Assembly (NCBI RefSeq): GCF_015775515.1
Contig: NZ_CP065383.1
Span: 186,001-250,000, forward strand
Origin: Atribacter laminatus
GTDB taxonomy: Bacteria; Atribacterota; Atribacteria; Atribacterales; Atribacteraceae
Reading direction: 5' to 3'
DNA length: 64,000 nt
Part shown: in pieces, positions 45,256 through 56,736 of the stretch
Position numbering within the stretch: position 1 is the first letter of the stretch
Layout: each line of letters opens with the position of its first letter
Position numbers and translations under genes: made by a program
The notes under the pieces: generated by a model
Databases searched by the model: none
What the model was told of the DNA's origin: nothing
What the model saw: only the letters and a program-made list of their open reading frames with translations

Positions 45256-46561
45256 TGTACGAACGGGGACATAGGTTACACTTTAGTCTAAGGACATAGG
45301 TAACACTTTTTAATCATCTTGAATCTCCGTTGATTCAAAAGTAAGGGTCTTTTTATCAATTATACCAATATCATAGGTAGAGAAACTAACTAACCAGGAA
45401 TGAGTATAGTCTTTGAATCCGAGAAGTTCACCAGCAAAGACTTTACTGATTCTGATCAGACGGTTGCCATAAAGAGAAATCCGTCCTGAGGAATCGACTT
45501 TACGAGTGAGCGTATGATGAGGATATTCACAATCACTTAAGGTTTTTGGATAGGGCCGGTCACTTTTGTGGTACCAGGAAGCTGGGGTTTCTTGGTTGAT
45601 TGCTTCATGGGGTCGTACGGTGTTATAGATGGTTTTAAAGGTTTCAAAGCGGTCTTGTTGGGTGAAAAGATTGGTGGCTGGTTTTTGACAGGCCTCTTCT
45701 TTTAAGGTGCGGTGCATCCGTTCATGACGGCTATTTTGTTCTGGATGTCCCGGATCAATGCGCTCTAAGATGATGCCGAGTTTCACTAACCACACCGAGA
45801 GTTGAGTGAGTCCAAAGGGAGAGTGAAGAGAAGCAAAGGGACTCCCGTTATCACTGCGGATCACCTGGGGAAGACCATATGTGGAAAAGCACTCTTTGAA
45901 GACCGGAAGGGATTCTTGAATGCTGGGAGAGGAAAGAGCTTCACAGGCAAGGAGATACCGGCTATAGTGATCGGTGATGGTTAAAGGATAACAGTATTTC
46001 CGATCTTGGGTTCGAAATTGTCCTTTAAAGTCGACACACCAGATCTCATTGGGTTCATGGCTGGTTCGAAGTTGACTGGTTGGCACACTTCTTCTCAATC
46101 GACGAGGGTGTGATCTCACCAGTCCATGGCGAGATAAGATGGCACTGATGGTACTGATTGCTGGAAAGACAATATCGGGATACTGTCTTTCCAAGGCGGG
46201 CTTGAGCTTTTTAGCTCCCCAACTGGGATGCTTGAATTTGGTATCCAGAATCATTTGCTCGGTCAGGGCATCAGTTTGACCCGCCAGGTGATGAGGACGT
46301 CGGGATTGATCTTTAAGTCCATCCAAACCAAAGGCTTGAAAACGATGAATAAACTTATAGGCGGTTTTTCGAGAGATTCCATATTCTCGACACAAATCTG
46401 TCACCTTTTCCTTGTTGAGATAACGATAAATCAATTCTTGTCTGAGATCCACTTTGTGTACCTCCGTCCATGGCATAAGGCATTCCTCCTTATGCCAGTA
46501 GTATACAAAGTGTTACCTATGTGTCAGGAACTTTCTGTTACCTATGTGTCCGGATCATACC
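45256..46561. mobile_element. IS481-family insertion sequence, complete
   Basis: The element is about 1306 bp and contains one transposase gene on the minus strand. The ends are imperfect inverted repeats beginning TGTACGAACGGGG on the left and GGTATGATCCGGA (reverse complement of the right end). Each end carries two copies of a subterminal motif, GGACATAGGTAACA: left 45267-45284 and 45292-45309, right 46507-46525 and 46535-46551. It interrupts an HR3 hairpin: left flank CTTGATGGGAG, right flank GAGAAGGTGAGGATGAG, giving a probable 3-bp target duplication GAG (45253-45255 and 46562-46564) by comparison with the intact site at 20520-20557. Confidence 0.88.
45310..46476 (-). CDS. IS481-family DDE transposase
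   Basis: The 388 aa have an N-terminal helix-turn-helix (KVTDLCREYGISRKTAYKFIHRF, about residues 20-42) and an rve integrase core: first Asp in EIWCVDFKGQF near 147, second in VIRSDNGSPFAS near 209, and Glu in PEQNSRHERMHRTLKEE near 245. The C-terminal domain (about 300-385) is complete. The ATG at 46476 follows AGGAGG, and the stop codon abuts the left inverted repeat. It appears intact and so may be active. Confidence 0.93.
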   Translation of the reverse strand: MPWTEVHKVDLRQELIYRYLNKEKVTDLCREYGISRKTAYKFIHRFQAFGLDGLKDQSRRPHHLAGQTDALTEQMILDTKFKHPSWGAKKLKPALERQYPDIVFPAISTISAILSRHGLVRSHPRRLRRSVPTSQLRTSHEPNEIWCVDFKGQFRTQDRKYCYPLTITDHYSRYLLACEALSSPSIQESLPVFKECFSTYGLPQVIRSDNGSPFASLHSPFGLTQLSVWLVKLGIILERIDPGHPEQNSRHERMHRTLKEEACQKPATNLFTQQDRFETFKTIYNTVRPHEAINQETPASWYHKSDRPYPKTLSDCEYPHHTLTRKVDSSGRISLYGNRLIRISKVFAGELLGFKDYTHSWLVSFSTYDIGIIDKKTLTFESTEIQDD

Positions 46562-47178: not shown

Positions 47179-47652
47179 TCAAGAGTCTAAACTACTTAAA
47201 TATTGACAAAATTCGCCTAATTGCCTTTCACAATCTTTAAAAACCATCGAAATATTTTCAATAAGATGTTTTATTCGTTCTGGCTTAAAATGATGTGCAT
47301 AAACGTTTCTTACCAGAAGACGGAATGATCGATATTCGTCTAACTTTTCTGATAGCTCATGAGTGATAACTACTGGTCTTATCCCTTTTAATGCGAATGT
47401 CATTTGCCTAAGGAGTTCTTGATGCCAACGGTTTCCGGAGAGCTTAATTCCATCAATATTTTCTGCAATGAATTCGAACAATCTTTCCAAGCCATTATAA
47501 AAATCATGGAGGTTCAATGCCACGCTATCAATATACAAATCATCTGAAGTTTTTTGAGCCTTTTCCCAGCCAAGTTGTATTCTCTCAGTAATTTTTTTAA
47601 TTTCCTCAAATTCGTACTGAATCCTACTCGCCACAACCAAATATGGATTCAT
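47179..47652 (-). CDS. HEPN-domain toxin (HepT-like)
   Basis: The 157 aa are helical with the HEPN RNase motif R-x4-H in LLVRNVYAHHF near residue 115. In MNT/HEPN systems the toxin cleaves RNA, and its cognate nucleotidyltransferase adds AMP to a tyrosine just after the motif (Rx4HxY, as in Shewanella). Here that position is Phe (HHF), so the usual target is missing, although a Tyr lies within the motif itself. The gene overlaps the nucleotidyltransferase gene by 4 nt (ATGA) and is second in the operon. Confidence 0.82.
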   Translation of the reverse strand: MNPYLVVASRIQYEFEEIKKITERIQLGWEKAQKTSDDLYIDSVALNLHDFYNGLERLFEFIAENIDGIKLSGNRWHQELLRQMTFALKGIRPVVITHELSEKLDEYRSFRLLVRNVYAHHFKPERIKHLIENISMVFKDCERQLGEFCQYLSSLDS

Positions 47653-48035
47653 TTAATTTCTACACCTTCCTTTTGGATAATTTCTCGAAGTAAAGGTGAA
47701 CAATCATAAGGATTAATAAGGTCAATTTTAAAATGAGGATGAAAATCAATCATTGCTCCGTAAGCTCGTAAATAAATATCATCCGGTATTCCCCATACCG
47801 CAAGGTCGATATCCGACCAAAGATGAAATCGGGATCGATCAAGGAGAGATCCAAAGACTTGAACTTTGGTTGCTTGATAATTTTTATAAAGAACTTGGGC
47901 TGCTTCCTGTGCAACTCTCCAGGCTTCATCAAATCTCTTTTTTAAATTCAAGTCTTGTTGAATTATTCTTTGTCGATAACTTTCTTTAAATTTCTTTAAT
48001 TCTTCTTGGGTTAAATCCTTGGCAGTTTTAGTCAC
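47649..48035 (-). CDS. Minimal nucleotidyltransferase (MNT) antitoxin
   Basis: The 128 aa have the polymerase-beta motif GSLLDRSRFHLWSDIDLAVWG near residue 60: G-S, then the D-x-D metal site, with eleven residues between S and D rather than the usual ten. The N-terminus is a helical lead of about 50 residues. The third carboxylate is probably the Asp in FKIDLINP. It should neutralise the HEPN toxin by AMP transfer. The ATG at 48035 has weak upstream signals. Confidence 0.83.
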   Translation of the reverse strand: MTKTAKDLTQEELKKFKESYRQRIIQQDLNLKKRFDEAWRVAQEAAQVLYKNYQATKVQVFGSLLDRSRFHLWSDIDLAVWGIPDDIYLRAYGAMIDFHPHFKIDLINPYDCSPLLREIIQKEGVEIK

Positions 48036-48877: not shown

Positions 48878-49516
48878 ATGAAATGGGAAGAATTTTTAAA
48901 ACAAGTTAATCATTTACCGGTGATTGAATCAGAAATGCTTCTTACCAGTGCGGCTGATCCTGCCGCCTTATCAGTGCAGTTAGTTCGGTGGGTAAAGGCG
49001 GGAAAAATCATTCAGGTGAAAAGAGGAGTCTACCTTCTCAGCGAGATTTACCGAAAAATTGACGTCTATGAACCTCATCTGGCATCGATTCTTATCAAAC
49101 CATCATACATCAGCCTTGAAAAGGCATTAGAATTTCATGGACTTATTCCGGAGGGGGTGCCAGTTTATACTTCGGTAACCACCAAACGATCCGGACGGTT
49201 TATCACTCCGGTTGGAGTATTCGATTATCGTCATTTACAGCCCTCCATTTTTTGGGGATACAAGTCCATTATTCTCCGTCAACAAACCGCCTTTATTGCT
49301 CAACCTGAAAAAGCTCTCCTTGACTATTTTTATCTCAAAAAAATCAAAATCTCTCACGACTTCCTGGAAGAAATGCGTCTTCAAAATTGTGAAATCATAA
49401 GCAATCAGACTCTCATCGCCTATGCTCAACGTTTCCAAAAACCCGGTATTATTACAGCTGCCAAAACCCTCCAGCAGTATCTGATTAACCAAAAGGGTAT
49501 TGTAAAACTCCTATGA
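48878..49516 (+). CDS. AbiEi-family antitoxin / transcriptional regulator
   Basis: The 212 aa have an N-terminal winged helix (residues 15-60, LSVQLVRWVKAGKIIQVKRGVYLLS) and the AbiEi C-terminal domain with SYISLEKALEFHGLIPE, YTSVTTKRSGRF and AQPEKALLDYFYL. In AbiE the antitoxin represses the operon and counters the toxin without a stable complex (type IV). It overlaps the toxin gene by 4 nt (ATGA 49513-49516). Confidence 0.88.
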   Translation: MKWEEFLKQVNHLPVIESEMLLTSAADPAALSVQLVRWVKAGKIIQVKRGVYLLSEIYRKIDVYEPHLASILIKPSYISLEKALEFHGLIPEGVPVYTSVTTKRSGRFITPVGVFDYRHLQPSIFWGYKSIILRQQTAFIAQPEKALLDYFYLKKIKISHDFLEEMRLQNCEIISNQTLIAYAQRFQKPGIITAAKTLQQYLINQKGIVKLL

Positions 49517-50322
49517 AAGACTACTTATTAGAACTGGCATCTCAGCAAACCAACTCATACAATAAGCTGAATGTGATGCGGGAATATCTTCAAGCCTATA
49601 CAATTCGTGTTCTCTTCGAAGAAGGTGCTTTCCGCACTCTTGCATTTATTGGTGGCACAGCCTTAAGATTTGTTTATCACCTCCCCCGTTATTCCGAAGA
49701 TTTGGATTTTTCTATTTTAAAATCTTCACACAGATATTCATTCCTCACCTTATTAAACCGGCTAAAAAAAGAATTTATTCTTGCCGGTTATGAAATAGTC
49801 ATTTCCTATAACGATCAAAAAACGGTGCAATCTGCTTTCCTCAAGTTCCCCAAGCTTCAATTTGAAGCGGGAATTTCATCATTTCCAGACCAAAATATCT
49901 CAATTAAGATTGAAATTGATACCAATCCCCCATCGAGTGCTCAAATTCAATCCCATATAATCAATAAATATTTTCCACTTTCTTTCACCAGCTATGATGT
50001 TCCTTCCCTTTTTGCCGGAAAAATCCATGCTCTTTTAACCAGAAATTATACCAAAGGTCGTGATTTCTTTGATCTGGGATGGTATCTTTCCCGGTGGAAA
50101 GAAATTGCCCCCAATTTTACTTTACTTATGAATGCTTTGAAACAAACTCATTATTCTGGAAACCACCCTACTCCTGAAAATTGGCGTCAAATTCTAATAA
50201 GCACCATTCAAAAAACCAATTGGAAAACCGTTACTGATGATTTCCAAAACTTCCTTGAAAATCCTTCTGACCTTACTATCTTTACCAAGGATAATCTCCT
50301 CAAACTTCTTAAAAAACCTTAA
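49513..50322 (+). CDS. AbiEii-family nucleotidyltransferase toxin
   Basis: The 269 aa match the AbiEii/AbiGii toxin fold: FIGGTALRFVYHLPRYSEDLDFSIL near residues 48-73 has the GG-x-AL loop and the D-x-D metal site. KIEIDTNPP near 135 and FAGKIHALLTRNYTKGRDFFDLGWYLS near 170-198 follow. The toxin is a bacteriostatic nucleotidyltransferase that can abort phage infection. It is the second gene of the AbiE operon next to an IS and another toxin-antitoxin pair. Confidence 0.9.
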   Translation: MKDYLLELASQQTNSYNKLNVMREYLQAYTIRVLFEEGAFRTLAFIGGTALRFVYHLPRYSEDLDFSILKSSHRYSFLTLLNRLKKEFILAGYEIVISYNDQKTVQSAFLKFPKLQFEAGISSFPDQNISIKIEIDTNPPSSAQIQSHIINKYFPLSFTSYDVPSLFAGKIHALLTRNYTKGRDFFDLGWYLSRWKEIAPNFTLLMNALKQTHYSGNHPTPENWRQILISTIQKTNWKTVTDDFQNFLENPSDLTIFTKDNLLKLLKKP

Positions 50323-50954: not shown

Positions 50955-51296
50955 ATGAAAAAGTCTATTAATTTCTTTCTAATTATCATGTCTTTGATTT
51001 TAATTCTCGGTAGTGTAAGTTTTGCAGAAACAGTAGTTTTAGAAGAAATTTTAAAAGGTGACCAGACTATAGCTGTTGATACTCAATTATTAAGTATTAT
51101 TCAGGGGAACGTCACTGTCGAACCAGGAATAACTTTTTATGTTGATGGTATTATTACTGGGAACTTAACACTTCAAGAAGGATCAATACTGGAATTAAAT
51201 GGAATTATTGAGGGAAACGTATACAACAATAGCGGAAATAGTATTAATGAAGAAAGTATAAATGGAATAGTAAAAGGGGAAATCGTTGAGAATTAA
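50955..51296 (+). CDS. Small exported bactofilin-like protein
   Basis: The ATG at 50955 follows TTGGAGG; the in-frame TTG at 50940 lies before that site and is rejected. The 113 aa start with a signal peptide (MKKSINFFLIIMSLILILGS, cleavage near SFA). The mature part consists of short turns of a beta-solenoid: IIQGNVTVEPGITFYVDGII, GNLTLQEGSILELNG and IIEGNVYNNSG. This pattern is like bactofilin/polymer-forming domains, but here it is exported. It lies just before three pilin-like genes and shares its repeat style with the last of them. Confidence 0.6.
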   Translation: MKKSINFFLIIMSLILILGSVSFAETVVLEEILKGDQTIAVDTQLLSIIQGNVTVEPGITFYVDGIITGNLTLQEGSILELNGIIEGNVYNNSGNSINEESINGIVKGEIVEN

Positions 51297-51341
51297 ATAG
51301 ATTTTTTCTATAAATTTTCACTCTGAGAGGGTATTCTGTAA

Positions 51342-51887
51342 ATGAGATTCTTTAAAAAAACACTTAATACCATATTAAAATATGATGAAAAAGGCTTTTC
51401 AATGATTGAAGTTATTGTTGTTATAGCATTGGCAGGATTTGCACTATTTGCCCTCTCTTCTCTTTTTTTAGGAACCAACCTTACCAAAAACGCCAACGAA
51501 AATTTATTATTAGCCAGCAATTTAGCCTCAGATGTCATGGAACATTTAAAAAAAACTAGTATTAATTACTACAATCGATTTGAAGATTTACTTGAAAGCT
51601 TGAATACCAAAACCATTGATTTCGATGACATTTTTAGCGTTGGTGCTTCATATGCTAATTTATATGATGATACTATTCCAAATTCATTCAATACATTACC
51701 AGATTCATTAAACCAATCATATATTTATTTTGAAGCATTAGATAGAGATCATAATAATAAAGCAACTAAGATTTTAATAAAAGTAGTTGTTAAATGGAAA
51801 GAGTTCTCAAGAGAGCAAAACAACGAACAGGAATATTCTGTAGCTACTTTCATTATTAAAAATGGTTTAGGATATTTTTTAAAATAA
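51342..51887 (+). CDS. Type IV pilin-like protein (PilV/GspI-like minor pseudopilin)
   Basis: The 181 aa carry the class III signal: a short basic leader, then G|FSMIEVIVVIALAGFALFAL, with Glu at position 5 of the mature protein, so a prepilin peptidase should process it at residue 24-25. The rest has the helical spine followed by a polar region with no recognised domain. The operon contains no peptidase or ATPase; these must be elsewhere. The sequence is clearly richer in A+T than the housekeeping genes of the window. Confidence 0.78.
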   Translation: MRFFKKTLNTILKYDEKGFSMIEVIVVIALAGFALFALSSLFLGTNLTKNANENLLLASNLASDVMEHLKKTSINYYNRFEDLLESLNTKTIDFDDIFSVGASYANLYDDTIPNSFNTLPDSLNQSYIYFEALDRDHNNKATKILIKVVVKWKEFSREQNNEQEYSVATFIIKNGLGYFLK

Positions 51888-51967
51888 TTCCAAACACTTA
51901 GCTCTGAATTATTAAAACAATATACTTTTCTACCAATGATTTGATTGAGGGAGGCTCTTGAGTATTA

Positions 51968-52504
51968 TTGTTGATGAATAATCTTTTTACACAAAAAAAA
52001 GAAATTAATAAAAAAGAAAGAGCCCATGAAGATGGGTTTATGCTTCTTGAAGTGGTTATAGTTATAGTCATTACGGTAATGCTTATGACTACTTTATATC
52101 AATTTTTTGGTTTTATGAACAAAAAAAGCAGGTCACAAATAACTGATCAAGTGCTGTCAGATAGCATAAACGTTTTTTTAAGTTCAATTTCAAGAGATAT
52201 TCGAACCGCAAATTATATCAAATTCAATAATTCTAATGAAATATACATAGAAAATGAATTAGGGCTTAATAATTACGTATCTAATACTTACAATTTCTTA
52301 TCTGATAGTATTGAAAAAAACAATCTTAAAATAATTAGTGGAATGACTAATTCGAGCATAAATTACCAAAAATCAACATTTTATGATAATTCAAAGGATG
52401 TTTATTATAACTATTATTCAAAAATTACTATAACATTATCCACACCTCATGATAATTACTCAACTTTAGTTGTTAGAAGAAACCCACCATCAGTTGATGA
52501 ATGA
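51968..52504 (+). CDS. Type IV pilin-like protein (PilW/GspJ-like minor pseudopilin)
   Basis: The 178 aa have a long basic leader (about 23 residues) and the processing site DG|FMLLEVVIVIVITVMLM, with Glu at mature position 5. The start codon is uncertain: GAGGGAGG lies at 51947-51954, but the usable TTG is at 51968 and an ATG at 51974, further away than normal. The body, with SQITDQVLSDSINVFLSSISRDIR, resembles PilW/PulJ proteins that sit at a pseudopilus tip. Confidence 0.72.
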   Translation: MLMNNLFTQKKEINKKERAHEDGFMLLEVVIVIVITVMLMTTLYQFFGFMNKKSRSQITDQVLSDSINVFLSSISRDIRTANYIKFNNSNEIYIENELGLNNYVSNTYNFLSDSIEKNNLKIISGMTNSSINYQKSTFYDNSKDVYYNYYSKITITLSTPHDNYSTLVVRRNPPSVDE

Positions 52505-52534
52505 ATGCTCCAAATAAAAAACTCGAGGTGAGTT

Positions 52535-54106
52535 ATGAATATTTTTAAAGAAAATAAAGGTTCAATTTTAATAACAGTAATATCCCTTATTGCTATTATT
52601 ACTGTCTTAATAGGTGTTGGTTCCACTCTGGTAATTTCAGGCAATAAAAAAGTTCATAGTACATCGAACAAAACCCAAGCTCATTATGTTGCCGAAGCAG
52701 GAATTGAAGAGGTAATATCAAATCCTTTTTTAATCAATAAAGTTTTAAAATCCTTCAATATTTTCTATAATCCAAGCAATCCAACAACTCCAGCTCCATC
52801 ACCACCCTGGATATCACTAATTGAAAAACCTTTCCCATTAAACTTCGAAAACAACAAAACTGGAACTTATTCTGTAGAGGGTAAAGTCGATCCTGATTCT
52901 ATAATTTTTGCTAATGGTGTTCCCCAAGAAGTAAAAATTAAGATTACATCAGAAGGAACAATAATAAATTCAAAAAATGATATTATCTCCATTAAGGAAA
53001 TAAATTGTAGGATTAAAGTTGATTTAGTAACTTTTTATAATATTGGGCTTAAAAATGCAATTGCTACGAGCAATAGTTTAAACTCTGGCAAGGTATATAT
53101 TGAATTAGATTCTGGAGTTACCAGTCCAGCAAATGTTTATAGTAATGCAAATATAACGAATATTGCTGGCACTATACCGGGTTCAATTTACGCAAGAGGA
53201 GGAGAAGTGATTATTGACAATAATACCATAGTAAATGGTGATGTAGTCGCAAGTGGTCGTGTTCAATTAAATAATAATGCACAAGTTGATGGGAAGGTGG
53301 TATCTTCAACCAGTTATGTGGATGTTAATAATAATGCAACAGTTGCAGGTGATACAGTCGGTTACGGTGTCGACAAAAAAGGGAATTCAGTTAATTTAGT
53401 TAACTCATCAGTCCATAACGTTTACACAAATAATGGAGAAAGTAGCTTCAATAGTAAAAACTCAAATTATAATTCAATTCAAATATTACCAGCGGAACCA
53501 AATTATCCGGCAGATTACCCAATTCCAGATGAAAATCTACCAATTATAACTGACGAAATAAGAGATTTATGGATAAAACAAGCACAAAGTGAAGGAAATA
53601 TAATTAATGGTGATTTTAATCTGACTACTGATCAGGCAGAATCTATTTCAACAAATACCTTTATTGACGGTAACCTAATACTTGAAAATAATGCAATTTT
53701 AAACATTGAAAAAGATGCACTAATTTTTATTACTGGATACATACAAATTGAAAATAACGCAGTTATTAATGGAACGGGTTCTCTTGTTACCGATGATTAC
53801 TTTATAATTAAAAACAATTCAATTCCAACTTCAATATCACTTATTGCGTTGGGGAGTACAACAGATTCTCAACTCACTAATAATTCAGCGACCACTGGTG
53901 CAATATTAGTTCCCAATGGCAATTTGGTCATTAATAATCAGGCAAATATTCATGGTGGTGTTTTCGCAAAATCCATTCCTAGTATTGGAAATAACGCAAA
54001 AATTGTTTTTAACCCCAAACTAAACCAAAATCTTCCCCCAACCCAAAATACCACTGAAGTTTTAACATTAGAATCTTGGACTGAAGATATAAATAGCTTG
54101 TTTTAA
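52535..54106 (+). CDS. PilX-like protein with a C-terminal beta-solenoid (polymer-forming) domain
   Basis: The 523 aa begin with a PilX-type N-terminus: KGSILITVISLIAIITVLIG, then HYVAEAGIEEV near residue 50; PilX proteins lack the Glu at position 5. Residues 190-300 and 360-500 are stacked short repeats rich in Asn, Gly and Val (IDNNTIVNGDVVASGRVQLN, VDGKVVSSTSYVDVNNNA, ILENNAILNIEKDALIFITG), like bactofilins or passenger beta-helices. A Pro-rich linker (PAEPNYPADYPIPDENLP) separates the two solenoids. Together with the first gene it suggests a pilus-tip scaffold that displays a solenoid. Confidence 0.7.
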   Translation: MNIFKENKGSILITVISLIAIITVLIGVGSTLVISGNKKVHSTSNKTQAHYVAEAGIEEVISNPFLINKVLKSFNIFYNPSNPTTPAPSPPWISLIEKPFPLNFENNKTGTYSVEGKVDPDSIIFANGVPQEVKIKITSEGTIINSKNDIISIKEINCRIKVDLVTFYNIGLKNAIATSNSLNSGKVYIELDSGVTSPANVYSNANITNIAGTIPGSIYARGGEVIIDNNTIVNGDVVASGRVQLNNNAQVDGKVVSSTSYVDVNNNATVAGDTVGYGVDKKGNSVNLVNSSVHNVYTNNGESSFNSKNSNYNSIQILPAEPNYPADYPIPDENLPIITDEIRDLWIKQAQSEGNIINGDFNLTTDQAESISTNTFIDGNLILENNAILNIEKDALIFITGYIQIENNAVINGTGSLVTDDYFIIKNNSIPTSISLIALGSTTDSQLTNNSATTGAILVPNGNLVINNQANIHGGVFAKSIPSIGNNAKIVFNPKLNQNLPPTQNTTEVLTLESWTEDINSLF

Positions 54107-56044: not shown

Positions 56045-56076
56045 TGATATCATTAAATTCAAGAGGTGATATCATT
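56045..56076 (+). promoter_or_regulatory. Putative operator of the VapBC pair
   Basis: TGATATCATT occurs at 56045-56054 and again at 56067-56076, 22 bp apart (two helical turns). Each contains the palindrome TGATATCA, and the second covers the start codon. This is the arrangement expected for autorepression by a ribbon-helix-helix antitoxin. Confidence 0.55.
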
Positions 56077-56335
56077 GAGTAATATCATTCTTAGAGGAAT
56101 TGACCCAAAAATTCATTTACAATTAAAAAAAGAGGCAAAAAGGAGAAAAATTAGTCTCAATGCTCTTCTTTTAGAATATGTTCTCGATGGTGCCGGATTA
56201 ACAGACAAGAAAACAAATAAGACTATTTATCATGACCTTGATCCTTTAGCTGGTACCTGGGATAAAAAAGAAGTCAATGAATTTCTTTCATCAATAAAAG
56301 ATTTTGAAAAAATTGAAAAAGAGCTTTGGGAATGA
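56075..56335 (+). CDS. FitA/VapB-type ribbon-helix-helix antitoxin
   Basis: The TTG at 56075 stands six bases after AGAGGTG; the GTG at 56066 is part of that site. The 86 aa start with the RHH strand-helix-helix (SNIILRGIDPKIHLQLKKEA, RRKISLNALLLEYV) and end in an acidic tail, DKKEVNEFLSSIKDFEKIEK, that should cover the toxin. Its stop overlaps the toxin ATG (ATGA 56332-56335). Confidence 0.85.
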   Translation: MSNIILRGIDPKIHLQLKKEAKRRKISLNALLLEYVLDGAGLTDKKTNKTIYHDLDPLAGTWDKKEVNEFLSSIKDFEKIEKELWE

Positions 56336-56736
56336 ATATTCTCATTGATACAAATGCCTACGCTTCTTTTAAATACGGTGAGGAAACTACAGTTGCAATT
56401 CTTCAGAAAGCTGAGCTTATCGGATTGAGTGTGATTGTCATTGGCGAGCTTTTATCTGGGTTTCGTCTGGGAAAGTATGAAAAACAGAATTGTAAAGAGT
56501 TGAATGATTTTATTGCATCTACACGAGTGAGAATTTTATTCATTGATGAAAATACCACATATTATTATTCTATGATTTACCACCAACTCAAAGAAAAAGG
56601 GAAACCTATCCCTACCAATGATTTGTGGATAGCGGCAACAGCTTTCCAAAATGGTCTTCCAATATTTACTTATGATCGTCATTTTTCAGAAATTGACGGT
56701 TTATTAGTGATCAATTCACCAGAATTATTAATTTAA
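56332..56736 (+). CDS. VapC-type PIN-domain ribonuclease toxin
   Basis: The 134 aa form a PIN domain with the acidic set ILIDTNAY (Asp near 5), VIGELLSGF (Glu near 40), PTNDLWIAATA (Asp near 96) and FTYDRHF (Asp near 115). VapC toxins cut tRNA or rRNA; the target here is unknown. It is translationally coupled to the upstream antitoxin. Confidence 0.9.
   Translation: MNILIDTNAYASFKYGEETTVAILQKAELIGLSVIVIGELLSGFRLGKYEKQNCKELNDFIASTRVRILFIDENTTYYYSMIYHQLKEKGKPIPTNDLWIAATAFQNGLPIFTYDRHFSEIDGLLVINSPELLI

Follow-up and report, generated by a model that had tools for sequence, protein, structure and literature searches.

Type IV pili are retractable surface fibers, and earlier work has described both tip pilins that bear a solenoid and clusters of accessory minor pilins. 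In Thermus thermophilus, the sheet of the pilin ComZ (6qvi) is interrupted ahead of its final strand by a beta-solenoid; the authors of that study argue for a place at the pilus tip and propose that ComZ binds DNA there (PMC6561018). Three minor-pilin/PilY1 clusters of Myxococcus xanthus serve one machine and are thought to give tips of differing properties (PMC7541494). PilBac1-5 of Shewanella oneidensis (SO_0854-SO_0850; PMC4376143) are encoded in a row of pilin genes that includes a pilin-adhesin with a bactofilin motif, and Streptococcus sanguinis PilB is a pilin carrier onto which a vWA module is grafted (PMC8179133).

We analyzed a four-gene cassette in a 64,000-nucleotide stretch of the Atribacter laminatus genome (here called the window). 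Like ComZ (with PilA2), its PilX-like protein combines a pilin/GspK-like domain with a large, predicted beta-solenoid (the head) and is encoded beside other minor pilins. Unlike ComZ, a competence protein to which it is 11% identical in the structural alignment, it comes with an exported bactofilin-like partner (BacE) and shows head swapping. The row of pilin genes recalls PilBac1-5 as described, but the bactofilin motif is reported there in the pilin-adhesin, whereas the cassette adds a separate exported single-domain protein. As with M. xanthus clusters 1 to 3, the set is accessory to the minor pilins that the one pilus machine has of its own; the tip adhesin there is PilY1, whereas a search for PilY1 (PF05567) found no match in this genome, but none in the control genomes either. 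As in S. sanguinis PilB, a functional module sits on a pilin carrier, in this case a beta-solenoid instead of vWA. We consider the operon likely to encode an accessory, exchangeable tip complex (adhesin or receptor) that serves the one type IV pilus machine of the cell and has a matched exported partner.

The source genome is one contig of 3.10 Mb. The four open reading frames lie on the plus strand at 50955-54106 of the window, separated by 45, 80, and 30 bp, and are flanked on each side by about 600 bp of noncoding DNA (Table 1). This compact spacing agrees with the four-gene operon proposed in a first-pass annotation of this DNA. A search of Rfam returned no RNA element, a terminator scan did no better than shuffles, and a promoter scan scored only slightly above shuffles. 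Directly upstream of the cassette is an AbiEi/AbiEii-like pair (window 48878-50322), which was present at the same site in the congener G001 and not seen there in G002, another member of the genus. A HEPN/MNT-type gene pair (window 47179-48035) is upstream of the cassette in G002 too (91 to 92% identity). An IS-type integrase/transposase reading frame (window 45310-46476) lies about 4.5 kb upstream, and a VapB/VapC-like pair (window 56066-56736) lies downstream.

Table 1. Genes of the cassette (positions in the window)
Gene product	Position	Strand	Basis
BacE, exported single-domain bactofilin-like beta-helix protein, 113 aa	50955..51296	+	ORF with SD
PilV/GspI-like minor pilin, 181 aa	51342..51887	+	N_methyl, TIGR02523 PilV
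PilW/GspJ-like minor pilin, 178 aa	51968..52504	+	DG/FMLLE leader; N_methyl, NF007848
PilX/GspK-like modular pilin with beta-solenoid head, 523 aa	52535..54106	+	AF2, Foldseek

The PilV-like protein has the prepilin leader KG/FSMIE with Glu5; its N_methyl match is above the cutoff (E 3.6e-5; 23.6 bits), and that to TIGR02523 is subthreshold (E 1e-4). The PilW-like leader also has Glu5, and its matches to N_methyl (E 0.03) and NF007848 (E 5e-7) are both below the cutoffs. The start of this gene is uncertain (TTG at 51968 or 51971 or ATG at 51974). The leader of the PilX-like protein (KG/SILIT), without Glu5 and with the motif AHYVAEAGIE, is of the PilX/GspK type. Tip subunits of the GspK type are without Glu5, and the residue is absent from all PilX homologues whose leader could be read. 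Class III leader features (G-1, a hydrophobic stretch, and Glu5 except in the GspK/PilX type) could thus be read in the sequences. The three genes are consecutive and in GspI-J-K order, and the genome encodes an assembly machine. Leaders, family matches, and gene order together uphold the pseudopilin identities given in the first-pass annotation.

That annotation had seen neither an ATPase nor a peptidase or major pilin in the vicinity and placed the pilus machine elsewhere, and a search of the genome for pilB and pilD bears out both statements: the only PilB/PilT and PilD are at 2.84 Mb, in a complete locus. This single type IV pilus locus (L010; 2.835-2.849 Mb), far from the cassette, has the order pilB, an inserted transposase, pilT, pilC, the major pilin, pilD, a fimT/gspH-like gene, small PilV-, PilW-, and PilX-like genes, and pilM, N, O, P, and Q. 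The transposase-like reading frame between pilB and pilT (L010:11766-12830; 2.846 Mb) is in the opposite orientation. PilB and PilT are the only T2SSE-family ATPases above the cutoff in the genome, and PilD is its one Peptidase_A24. A major-pilin operon, which was to have shown the cassette pilins to be ordinary minor pilins, therefore exists, but it has a separate core set (fimT-pilV-pilW-pilX), and we rejected that reading. Since the sole possible machine already has minor pilins of its own, the cassette is accessory. A separate type II secretion system was likewise rejected, as there is no second assembly ATPase. The GspI/J/K-like set and the exported partner in one operon would also suit a secretion pseudopilus of that type, with PilV, PilW, and PilX pushing out BacE or other exoproteins; we regard this as improbable, because the genome has no separate GspE-type ATPase, its one machine has the type IV components PilT and PilM to PilQ, and a piston needs no large head.

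The AlphaFold2 (AF2) model of the PilX-like protein, built with five homologues, had a mean pLDDT of 82 and a pTM of 0.78, with low confidence in the first 41 residues. It predicts a pilin domain and a large beta-solenoid in one chain: leader and helix at about residues 1 to 73, pilin sheet at about 93 to 167, solenoid at about 176 to 492, and a last strand, after the solenoid and with a conserved Trp, at 510 to 517. The solenoid fusion foreseen in the first-pass annotation is thus reproduced by structure prediction, and the residues concerned (176 to 495) hold Asn-rich repeats (15.6% Asn). Of the two solenoid domains joined by a proline linker that it described, the two stretches of solenoid strands (about 176 to 298 and 355 to 492) and the Pro-rich linker (about 318 to 339, followed by a helix at 340 to 351) are there in the model. 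They may nevertheless be one interrupted solenoid, because the parts of the ComZ solenoid are also joined by a long loop and a short helix.

The top Foldseek match among solved structures was ComZ (E 5.4e-7; probability 1.00); the global TM-score was low (about 0.2), and the arrangement of the domains relative to ComZ is unproven. Further matches were to an ice-binding protein and, at subthreshold E values, to the beta-helix C domains of Caldicellulosiruptor tapirins (4wa0, 6n2b, and 6n2c; for 4wa0, probability 0.92 and E 0.037). A weak N-terminal match to tapirin NF051896 (E 2.6e-4) was far below the cutoff (19.4 versus 600 bits), and that to DUF7305 (PF23981) was just below it (26.3 versus 27 bits). 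Sequence searches of solved structures with the PilX-like protein and BacE gave no usable match. Because ComZ is the nearest structure and the genome encodes a ComEC-type channel protein, DNA uptake is the main rival explanation: the solenoid tip would bind DNA, and retraction of the pilus, for which PilT is present, would pull it in for natural transformation. We consider this unlikely. ComEC is widespread in bacteria, the head is acidic (pI 4.3; 14 K+R versus 29 D+E), although ComZ also has no positive patches (PMC6561018), and the head swapping and fast divergence described below better suit a variable ligand.

BacE has a signal-peptide-like N terminus ending in SFA/ET, and a start of this kind was read by eye in all BacE homologues, which argues against a cytoplasmic location. 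The protein therefore appears, from its sequence, to be exported, unlike cytoskeletal bactofilins. Its match to Bactofilin (PF04519) is below the cutoff of 27.9 (15.8 bits; E 0.017), as is that of the PilX-like protein (22.3 bits; E 1.6e-4), whereas two other loci of the genome exceed it; the best BacE relative reached an E of 7.6e-5. The AF2 model of BacE (mean pLDDT, 82) is small, with beta strands throughout, and its Foldseek matches were to ice-binding proteins and bactofilins, none of them significant (2n3d, E 2.3, TMt 0.50; 6ria, E 3.4, TMt 0.51). The description of the first gene as exported and bactofilin-like thus stands as a likeness and falls short of family membership. A search of the literature on exported bactofilins and on tapirins with pili found nothing usable.

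The weak bactofilin-type matches in both proteins, and the coinheritance of BacE with the head, could also mean that the two form a polymerizing extracellular beta-helical fiber at the pilus tip. A polymerizing fiber was one function first suggested for the locus, and we abandoned it as quite improbable: BacE is below the bactofilin cutoff, its structural matches to bactofilins are not significant, nothing shows polymerization, and the PilX-like protein is without Glu5 and matches ComZ, which has been argued to be located at the tip.

The proposal that the same gene set be sought in relatives proved productive, with complete four-gene sets in G002, G013, G019, and G021 (35 to 77% identity). 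In G016 the set is split over two contigs whose ends, read by eye, seem to meet within the end of PilW. Scanning GTDB contigs with a single sequence gave no relatives, and scanning with an alignment gave four relatives of the PilX-like protein, all in metagenome-assembled genomes labeled "Candidatus Atribacteria." Of 50 genomes of the phylum, 15 contain DUF7305-domain relatives, and all 15 belong to one order; the relatives in G010, G013, G019, G021, and G024 pass the cutoff, and those of G013, G019, and G021 are full length. G019 has the cassette between pilD and pilM and G021 has it beside pilC, and PilV-PilW-PilX genes directly follow pilD in G020. These locations in pilus loci link the cassette with the machine; none of the three sites has core minor pilins, although the genomes are fragmented. 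The G020 bin is small, and three of its contigs (C37, C86, and C158) each bear pilM, as would be seen with several pilus loci or mixed strains.

Third-position GC content (GC3) was 0.20 to 0.22 in the four cassette genes and 0.29 to 0.39 in most neighbors and most core pil genes. The stretch is thus AT-richer than its neighbors, as first noted, at third codon positions; low values were also found for the VapB-like gene at 56066 (0.20) and for the core PilX-like gene (0.24). This composition, together with the transposase, the AbiE-like pair, and the toxin-antitoxin-like genes nearby, would fit a functionless, decaying passenger of a genomic island. Such a passenger is highly improbable, since all four frames are intact and kept in five genomes of several genera, with invariant residues spread along the proteins.

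We divided the cassettes into type A, with a double-solenoid PilX (G000, which is the source genome, G002, G013, G016, G019, and G021), and type B, with a short, approximately 390-aa DUF7305 PilX (G010, G011, G014, G017, G023, and G024). BacE was upstream of the head gene in 6/6 type A cassettes, and a secreted YncE-like beta-propeller (L039:4445-5383, with equivalents in L040-L044) was downstream of it in 6/6 of type B; the sample is small and phylogenetically nonindependent, and several of the genomes are fragmented. As exceptions, G001 and G006 have BacE together with heads of other types, and solenoid PilX proteins occur without BacE in G020 and G010. The propeller is a possible PilY1-like tip partner. 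In two groups of congeners, the types differ. G013 (type A) and G011 and G014 (type B) share the same kind of xylulokinase- and SAM-hydroxide-transferase-like neighbors, and the site that holds type B in G017 holds type A in G016, flanked by genes for a nitroreductase-like (77% identity) and a carboxypeptidase-like (70%) protein, names that are our reading of these flanks, made without a family search.

To compare carriers and heads, we built one tree from PilV, PilW, and the PilX N terminus and another from the C-terminal heads; the rows were few, and the groupings evaluated were picked after the data had been seen. In the carrier tree, G016 fell within a clade with G010, G011, G014, and G017 (100/100), and a grouping with the other type A cassettes was rejected (p-AU = 4.6e-5). 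In the head tree, its place was within the clade of double-solenoid heads (100/100), and a grouping with its carriers' kin was rejected (p-AU of 3e-60 or lower). From this strong disagreement, we conclude that heads have been swapped. Every bootstrap tree of the heads had types A and B each to one side of a branch, whereas the BacE and YncE labels need three changes each on the carrier tree. The accessory protein therefore tracks the head and not the carrier, the main reason for proposing a joint function of BacE and the head, although BacE could instead act elsewhere in the envelope.

Whole cassettes also differ between close relatives. G001 has the same flanking genes as the source genome (AbiEi-like, 94% identity; AbiEii, 95%; radical SAM, 93%; GGDEF, 89%), whereas its cassette proteins are 28 to 41% identical, BacE is at the opposite end, and the locus is on two contigs. 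Its grouping with the source genome and G002 in the carrier tree was rejected (p-AU = 0.004), a result made less firm by long branches; the homologues of G001 and G006 are too divergent for firm placement. Identity between the source genome and G002 is 91 to 92% for the flanking HEPN/MNT-like proteins but 62 to 75% for those of the cassette. Part of this divergence is ordinary fast pilin evolution, since core minor pilins also outpace their operon (60 to 83% versus 82 to 92% between the source genome and G001).

For the tip complex that we favor, we infer that the cassette uses the single machine: the one PilD would process the three pilins, and the one PilB/PilC would assemble them. The PilV-, PilW-, and PilX-like proteins would prime and cap the pilus in the manner of GspI/J/K and PilV/W/X, with the PilX-like subunit at the very tip and its predicted solenoid head contacting the target as an adhesin or receptor. 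BacE would be exported separately and dock on the head as a cap or coreceptor, a place that the secreted beta-propeller would fill in type B cassettes. Swapping of heads with their partners between pilin carriers, and divergence or replacement of whole cassettes at fixed sites, would then alter what the pilus binds.

In a literature search limited to open papers, we found no description of such pairing of head type with exported partner or of head swapping between carriers. More tentatively, the pili of Atribacterota might in general have interchangeable tip heads with matched exported partners, swapped by recombination and working without PilY1, with a bactofilin-like protein turned into an extracellular binding or capping module. 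Pilus tips set what a bacterium adheres to. If matched modules are exchanged on a conserved carrier, they would offer a direct test of how tip specificity evolves and of which surface gene truly partners a tip pilin, and they would give DUF7305 and exported bactofilin-like proteins a testable role in a phylum with few cultured members.
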